From NCBI GenBank assembly GCA_903865745.1, contig CAIPKV010000061.1:1-50925 (forward strand): 50,925 bases of DNA, given 5' to 3'. Made by a program: the position numbers and the translations under genes. Of the stretch, positions 31,090-31,488 are shown piece after piece. Position 1 is the stretch's first letter. Each line of letters begins with the position of its first letter. The DNA comes from an uncultured Verrucomicrobia subdivision 3 bacterium (GTDB lineage: Bacteria; Verrucomicrobiota; Verrucomicrobiia; Limisphaerales; UBA11358). Below the pieces are notes generated by a model. That model saw only the letters and a list, made by a program, of their open reading frames with translations, made no database searches and was not told the DNA's origin.

Positions 31090-31488
31090 CGGAACAGGTT
31101 CCGCGTCACGCGTGGGATGTTCCGCGTCGCTGGGAACATGTTCCCAGTCGCGCGGGGCATGTTCCGCACCATCCGGGGCCTGTTCCGCGTCGTCCGGAAC
31201 ATGTTCCGCGTCCTCTGGAACCTGTTCCGCACCGCTCGGGGCCTGTTCCGCGTCGCTGGGAACATGTTCCCAGTCGCGCGGGGCATGTTCCGCGCCATGC
31301 GGGGTATGCCCCGCGTCATTCGGAGCATGCCCCGTAAGTTGCGGGGTGTGCCCCGCTACTTGCGGGGACTTCCCCGCAGCCTGTGGGGACTGCTCCGCGA
31401 GCTTCGGGGTATGCCCCGCGTCGTCCGGGGTCTGCTCCGCGCCACGCGGGGTGTGCCCCGCATGGCGTGGGGTGTGCCCCACGTGAGG
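31090..31488. repeat. Array of nineteen 21-bp units with palindromic cores
   Basis: Exactly 399 bp = 19 x 21, without a single indel. Each unit is a core of about 14 bases, self-complementary (for example CGGAACATGTTCCG, GGGAACATGTTCCC, CGGGGACTTCCCCG, TGGGGTGTGCCCCA), plus a 7-base variable linker. Units grade from GGAAC...GTTCC types on the left to GGGG...CCCC types on the right. The 36-bp block starting at unit 3 (31132) recurs identically at unit 9 (31258), showing internal duplication. Because 21 is a multiple of 3 all units stay in phase, and several frames on both strands are open as heptapeptide repeats, including a minus-strand [GE]HTP..A type (31078-31545) and a plus-strand MFRVAGN type (31117-31650). 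It lies between feoB's 3' end and topB's 5' end. Confidence 0.97.

Follow-up and report, generated by a model that had tools for sequence, protein, structure and literature searches.

The DNA analysed here (the window; 50,925 nucleotides) contains a tandem repeat of 21 bp units (array 1; 31,090 bp–31,488 bp, no strand assigned), and the question raised by this locus is whether such a repeat encodes structured RNA, encodes a repetitive protein, provides sites for a DNA-binding protein or is the neutral product of duplication. Array 1 lies between a type IA DNA topoisomerase gene (27,903 bp–30,707 bp, minus strand; Pfam Topoisom_bac, E 4.6e-113, Toprim_Crpt and Toprim) and a gene for a FeoB ferrous iron transporter (31,620 bp–33,647 bp, minus strand; Pfam FeoB_N, E 7.7e-58, Gate and FeoB_C). 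A unit-by-unit check of the sequence bore out the 19 contiguous 21 bp units, without an indel, that had been reported in the first-pass annotation. The description of these units as exact holds for their length, which is always 21 bp, but not for their sequence, the mean pairwise difference being 7.7 of the 21 positions. The core can be written as (C)GGRRN-NT-GYYCC(G) and consecutive cores are separated by 7-nt linkers. The periodicity was evident in a lag scan (z 12.1) and the dyad symmetry of the consensus was 0.76, compared to 0.56 under the null (p 0.01).

As had been claimed, the cores of array 1 (12 bp–14 bp) were self-complementary. Pairing was scored over six pairs, columns 1–6 with columns 9–14, with the identical units 3 and 9 counted once. 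Standard pairs made up 96.3% of the 108 cells from the 18 distinct units, compared to a mean of 89.6% in shuffled versions, and none of the 500 shuffles was as high; sliding the partner columns by 1–3 positions reduced pairing to 32–56%. The outermost pair showed the states described previously (C-G in 14 units, U-G in two, U-A in one and G-C in one, units 3 and 9 counting once), and the reported plus-strand bias towards G.T was also recovered, with 20 G.T cells and one A.C cell in the 18 distinct units. The covariation score was 0.469 compared to 0.305 in shuffled versions, a value that none of 500 shuffles reached. All of this is consistent with tandem RNA hairpins, in which the array would be transcribed and every unit would fold into a small stem-loop recognised by a regulator or a ribonuclease, and array 1 is the best case for such hairpins (z 3.7). 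Its arm states nevertheless sit in blocks, the right arm having TT in units 1–10 and mostly CC in units 11–19, so that there are few independent compensatory events. Also against such hairpins, the plus strand of array 1 is antisense to both neighbouring genes.

The window holds a second 21 bp array in addition to array 1 and the finding is thus larger than first described. Array 2 (47,305 bp–47,528 bp, no strand assigned) has 11 units with the core (AA/CC)AGTACCTACT(TT/GG), a palindrome that differs from that of array 1 and whose outer pairs are AA..TT or CC..GG in several units; imperfections are found in unit 1 and in several outer pairs. Its lag scan gave a z of 10.8 and its dyad symmetry was 0.76 (p 0.005). 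To the left is an RNase R-like gene with an RNB domain (44,558 bp–47,008 bp, minus strand; Pfam RNB, E 1.9e-111) and to the right is an ORF of 210 aa (47,706 bp–48,338 bp, plus strand) that had no Pfam match at E 0.001. An ORF of similar size, again without a Pfam match, adjoins another divergent array (L011, 3039 bp–3704 bp). Additionally, a 7 bp tandem array (CTTTGGA, 22.6 copies) occupies the contig end (1 bp–158 bp of the window).

The same genome was scanned for any period between 5 bp and 70 bp in 30 stretches (597,877 bases) that had not been selected for arrays. The first ten contigs came from an earlier list of chance matches, and the twenty further stretches lay mostly in the middle of contigs, and for three the contig was known to carry an array elsewhere (C13 twice and C18 once). 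This revealed 33 periodic regions in 598 kb, 28 of which had a fundamental period of 21 bp; periods of 6 bp, 12 bp, 18 bp, 42 bp and 66 bp were each found once. No periodic region occurred in 20 control stretches (397,877 bases) generated by Markov resampling. The density of arrays was approximately 47 per Mb, or one per 21 kb of sampled chromosome, which by extrapolation gives about 170 arrays in the genome, roughly 18% of which was read. Counted per 20 kb stretch, the arrays were spaced more evenly than Poisson (index 0.53, p 0.019 in a single uncorrected test).

Many of the arrays are GC-rich and their sequences are mostly unrelated to one another within the genome. Array 1 is related to arrays on C13, C18 and C82 and resembles part of those on C13 and C18. 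The arrays on C13, C18 and C82 have flanks in common and appear to have been copied, as do L125, L165 and L180, and L167 and L179. Mobile copies of one repeat were rejected, flanks being common to some arrays only, and a CRISPR array was rejected for units that are diverged throughout, have no spacer and have a period of 21 bp. Twelve of 36 arrays overlapped ORFs of 150 aa or longer, which may be real or spurious. The genes neighbouring the other 24 were divergent in seven cases, both on the plus strand in six, both on the minus strand in five and convergent in three, with three arrays at stretch ends; so mixed an orientation speaks against the arrays being simple terminators or promoters. Two further observations concern the surroundings of the arrays. 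A TATTTCGCGTATTTCGCGGTAA-like motif recurs near several of them (L125, 56 bp–86 bp; L165, 1947 bp–1995 bp and 2499 bp–2534 bp; L168, 5652 bp–5698 bp; L123, 558 bp–606 bp; L180, 10,393 bp–10,430 bp), and an Acido-Lenti-1 RNA (Rfam RF01687; L125, 16,534 bp–16,579 bp) lies approximately 0.9 kb from an array, with a Y1_Tnp match next to it on that contig.

Neither array 1 nor an array on C82 had a real counterpart among 48 congeners, the one match found (27 bp, in G034) being near the E-value limit. Period-21 regions were present in two of 18 sampled congeners, G039 (two in 225 kb) and G036 (one in 51 kb), and in 20 genomes belonging to other families (332 kb) all six periodic regions had periods other than 21 bp. 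A two-unit pattern searched against 387 genomes of the phylum matched in ten, and the source genome alone was above the control (14 matches compared to 0); each of the other nine matched at a single place, and reversing the pattern as a control likewise gave matches in approximately ten genomes. In named genome contigs, the exact two-unit pattern was found at five loci, in Culturomica, Tannerella, Treponema and Odoribacteraceae MAGs and in Nocardia. The isolate codes of the four MAGs presumably denote termite-gut samples. The Nocardia locus (L026) is a diverged repeat in which five of the six reading frames are open, and it was set aside as probably coding.

In the Treponema MAG, TAGAACATGTTCTA-type units at exactly 21 bp were present at no fewer than eight additional loci, and one of these loci was matched in nine of the 195 genomes of the family group, the MAG itself included. 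When eight contigs of this MAG, picked by number and totalling 108 kb, were scanned, nine regions proved periodic; four were of period 21, with four new sequences, and the dyad was significant in two of these. At the Odoribacteraceae locus two different palindromes alternate at exact 21 bp steps. The same MAG has a period-75 repeat with approximately 46 conserved nucleotides (L112, 12 bp–584 bp) that looks like a CRISPR array. Arrays of period 7 were also found in G036 and the Treponema MAG. Distant blastn searches gave no match for array 1 in phages and plasmids and none for a Treponema array in plasmids, and viral contigs contained no three-unit match and one two-unit match without further units.

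Of 36 arrays, 21 had a consensus dyad above that of the column-permuted null at p ≤ 0.05 (approximately two expected) and 17 at p ≤ 0.01; 15 had no significant dyad. What makes these arrays a genome-wide class is less their sequence than their period and symmetry. The class does not behave as the RNA hairpins of array 1 would predict, even though folding gave a z below −2 relative to column-permuted versions on at least one strand in 28 of 34 arrays, and some cores have odd centres and asymmetric loops. Folding was equal on the two strands (mean z −3.35 and −3.16), and the 21 arrays with a significant dyad totalled 140 G.T and 116 A.C cells, which is no strand bias. In the orientation that best matches array 1, the core pairs of the C13 array (11 units) showed the opposite bias with three G.T and nine A.C; the dyad centre picked by the script for this array was the linker centre, so its cells in the 21-array totals are not core cells, whereas the counts of three and nine are. 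In Treponema arrays the bias in core pairs goes both ways. Across the 21 arrays, Watson–Crick cells numbered 1189 compared to 1145 expected under independence, a slight excess, and dyad column pairs were no more informative than other column pairs (mutual information, p = 0.13). No Rfam family was found on the window arrays or at nine other loci searched. Covariation is therefore borne out for array 1 alone and shows no excess in the class of 21 arrays, and the proposal that selection keeps hairpins in a plus-strand RNA is not upheld by the comparison, given the opposite bias on C13 and the lack of class-wide strand bias or excess covariation. Although array 1 by itself passes the covariation test, RNA hairpins are not favoured overall and we consider them improbable.

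A second possibility put forward in the first-pass annotation was a heptapeptide-repeat protein, 21 bp being seven codons. Frames of array 1 are open on both strands, its heptads are amphipathic by eye in one frame, and array L173 lies within an ORF that by eye seems to be coding. Four frames of array 1 were however without a Pfam match above the curated cut-off, column variation was three-periodic in none of 34 arrays (p < 0.05), and five of the 34 had stops in all six frames after their ends were trimmed. Differences by codon position in a common frame were 10, 12 and 4 between C13 and C82 and 9, 8 and 7 between C13 and C18, with no wobble bias. In eight Treponema arrays 72 of the 79 units start with TAG, which would end translation in the plus frame open in array 1. 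A coding repeat was rejected on the codon-position counts, the stops and the absence of a common frame; heptapeptide coding would thus appear to be largely refuted already, and we give it the lowest likelihood of the explanations considered.

The geometry of the arrays was far more constant than their sequence. Thirty-four arrays of at least six units each comprised 444 units and at least 2175 substitutions (minimum spanning trees); units are approximately 40% diverged and phase shifts are almost absent: clear out-of-phase units occurred within one array (L176) and a weak out-of-phase match in another (L167), although this constancy may be overestimated because the lag-21 trimming of arrays favours in-phase units. 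A 1 bp shift was found in L085, an array from another genome in the Treponema family group. Beside the arrays, A/T-tracts are phased at 10.1 bp–10.2 bp with a coefficient of 0.40 (46 flanking intergenic segments), compared to −0.04 in 162 array-free intergenic segments of similar G+C, and none of 300 run-preserving shuffles was as high. This A-tract cap is mainly one-sided at many arrays and absent at some. To the left of array 1 (31,027 bp–31,071 bp) there are five A/T-tracts of 4–5 bases with centres 8 bp–12 bp apart (mean approximately 10 bp), and the phase score is 0.85 at 10.2 bp (six tracts within 130 bp). To the left of array 2 (47,241 bp–47,284 bp) three tracts lie approximately 20 bp apart, with a phase score of 1.0 at 9.9 bp for these three tracts only. 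Conservation of units showed no clear polarity towards the cap (10 of 15 arrays, mean difference 0.14 positions).

One palindrome per 21 bp corresponds to two turns of B-DNA, which places each site on the same side of the helix. A symmetric consensus, deviations from it that are largely independent, as expected for degenerate binding sites, and a fixed helical step fit the sites of a protein dimer better than stem-loops or templated repair. The repeated protein-binding site that the first-pass annotation had listed among its alternatives is what we would now prefer. We tentatively propose, at a little less than an even chance, that the arrays are non-coding dyad sites in helical phase, capped by A-tracts, on which a nucleoprotein scaffold is built. 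A putative symmetric protein dimer would bind each unit, adjacent dimers on one face of the helix would cooperate to form a filament or scaffold, and the curved stretch of A-tracts, which often lies at one end, may start or anchor it; candidate roles are a nucleoid domain, an insulator or a centromere-like site. The recurrence of the same design in the Treponema MAG counts for this scaffold. Against it count the 15 arrays with no significant dyad, the 12 that overlap an ORF, and the lack of relation between the cores of different arrays, which a single protein recognising one sequence would not readily explain; the binder would have to read shape and symmetry more than bases, or there would be several related binders. 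Presence in two of 18 congeners argues against an essential chromosome function, and the period-7 arrays hint at a 7 bp mutational unit instead of helical phase. An archaeal-type histone was rejected as an explanation, having no correlate, with the histone family in none of 12 genomes.

The main rival of the scaffold is neutral duplication with a fixed 21 bp step, and the period-7 arrays favour keeping it in consideration. Palindromes promote slippage. In such neutral or selfish minisatellites, palindrome-aided tandem duplication would spread the units and quasi-palindrome repair would match their arms, with no host function. The sporadic presence in related species, the copied-looking arrays with common flanks and the coexistence of period-7 arrays all fit this explanation. 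Neutral unit lengths should however vary, and 28 of the 33 regions have 21 bp; units as diverged as these should not have remained almost free of phase shifts; quasi-palindrome repair predicts a covariation within units that is weak across arrays; and the phased A-tracts are not predicted. We regard neutral minisatellites as plausible, at somewhat lower odds than the scaffold.

Another candidate was REP/BIME-type palindromes mobilised by a RAYT (TnpA-REP) transposase. These are GTAG- or CGTC-tagged families, known in Verrucomicrobia from Opitutus terrae, and in the cited part of the survey they are short, mostly extragenic, many-copy palindromes that sometimes form tandem clusters (PMC3733652). 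The arrays are likewise palindromic, multi-copy and mostly intergenic, some have common flanks, and the source genome has two Y1_Tnp matches. REP/BIME elements as described there are recognised by family sequence, terminal tag and variable spacing, whereas the arrays have constant spacing and varied, mostly mutually dissimilar sequences, and 32 of 34 are untagged, the GTAG/CGTC tetramer being present in at least 60% of units in only two. The main text of the REP survey does not mention "21 bp", and Y1_Tnp is found in 44 of 49 family genomes and so does not track the arrays. With the tag so rare and no correlate in Y1_Tnp, REP/RAYT was rejected and seems to us very improbable as an explanation.

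Other known systems resemble the arrays in part. The sopC site of F consists of tandem units, each with a dimer-bound inverted repeat, at a near-integral helical spacing of 43 bp. Array 1 and its class share tandem inverted-repeat units at constant spacing with sopC, but each plasmid has a single sopC of one sequence, served by a dedicated partition pair, whereas the arrays occur about once per 21 kb with many sequences. Cyanobacterial STRR are short intergenic heptamer repeats. The TAACTGA repeats of Beggiatoaceae are of the same kind (PMC4679880). Like the arrays, heptamer repeats are genome-wide and intergenic, and period-7 arrays occur here too, but the heptamer repeats consist of one short sequence instead of 21 bp dyad units of many sequences. 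PARCEL, in the portion of its description used here, is a protein-coding repeat of 25 residues (75 nt) with tandem units, dyad symmetry and a patchy distribution across distant bacteria (PMC2996958); it differs in that its 75-nt unit is coding, while the units here are 21 bp and their 34 arrays lack a codon signal. Fis is a dimer that reads shape at poorly related sites and contacts 21 bp, with complexes and curvature raised by flanking A-tracts, and its sites have a 15 bp AT-rich core between G and C (PMC4784862, in part). Fis would serve as a working comparison for the arrays, with no kinship claimed; on that description its AT-rich cores differ from the many GC-rich arrays. Among the titles and abstract beginnings listed from one open-access library, none gave an account of intergenic arrays with constant period and variable sequence.

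In its widest form the proposal is of a chromosomal element whose geometry is conserved and whose sequence is not. A genome would carry tens to hundreds of arrays, mostly intergenic and for the most part each with a different palindrome, held to a two-turn helical step beside curved A-tract DNA and read for symmetry and shape by a dimer. This bacterial nucleoid scaffold would come and go among sister species and be found again in phyla far apart. We advance this generalisation more cautiously than the scaffold itself, as a possibility that is less likely than not. To our knowledge, bacterial repeat families are recognised by sequence. The constants here are the 21 bp spacing, the dyad symmetry and the phased A-tracts while sequence varies; similarity searches would miss such a class. 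The patchy occurrence of the arrays, common in this genome, rare in the sampled sister species and present in the Treponema MAG, provides a natural comparison. Either outcome would be new: a protein scaffold would give a handle on chromosome folding and insulation in bacteria beyond the usual models, and neutral arrays would reveal an unrecognised duplication process with a fixed 21 bp step.
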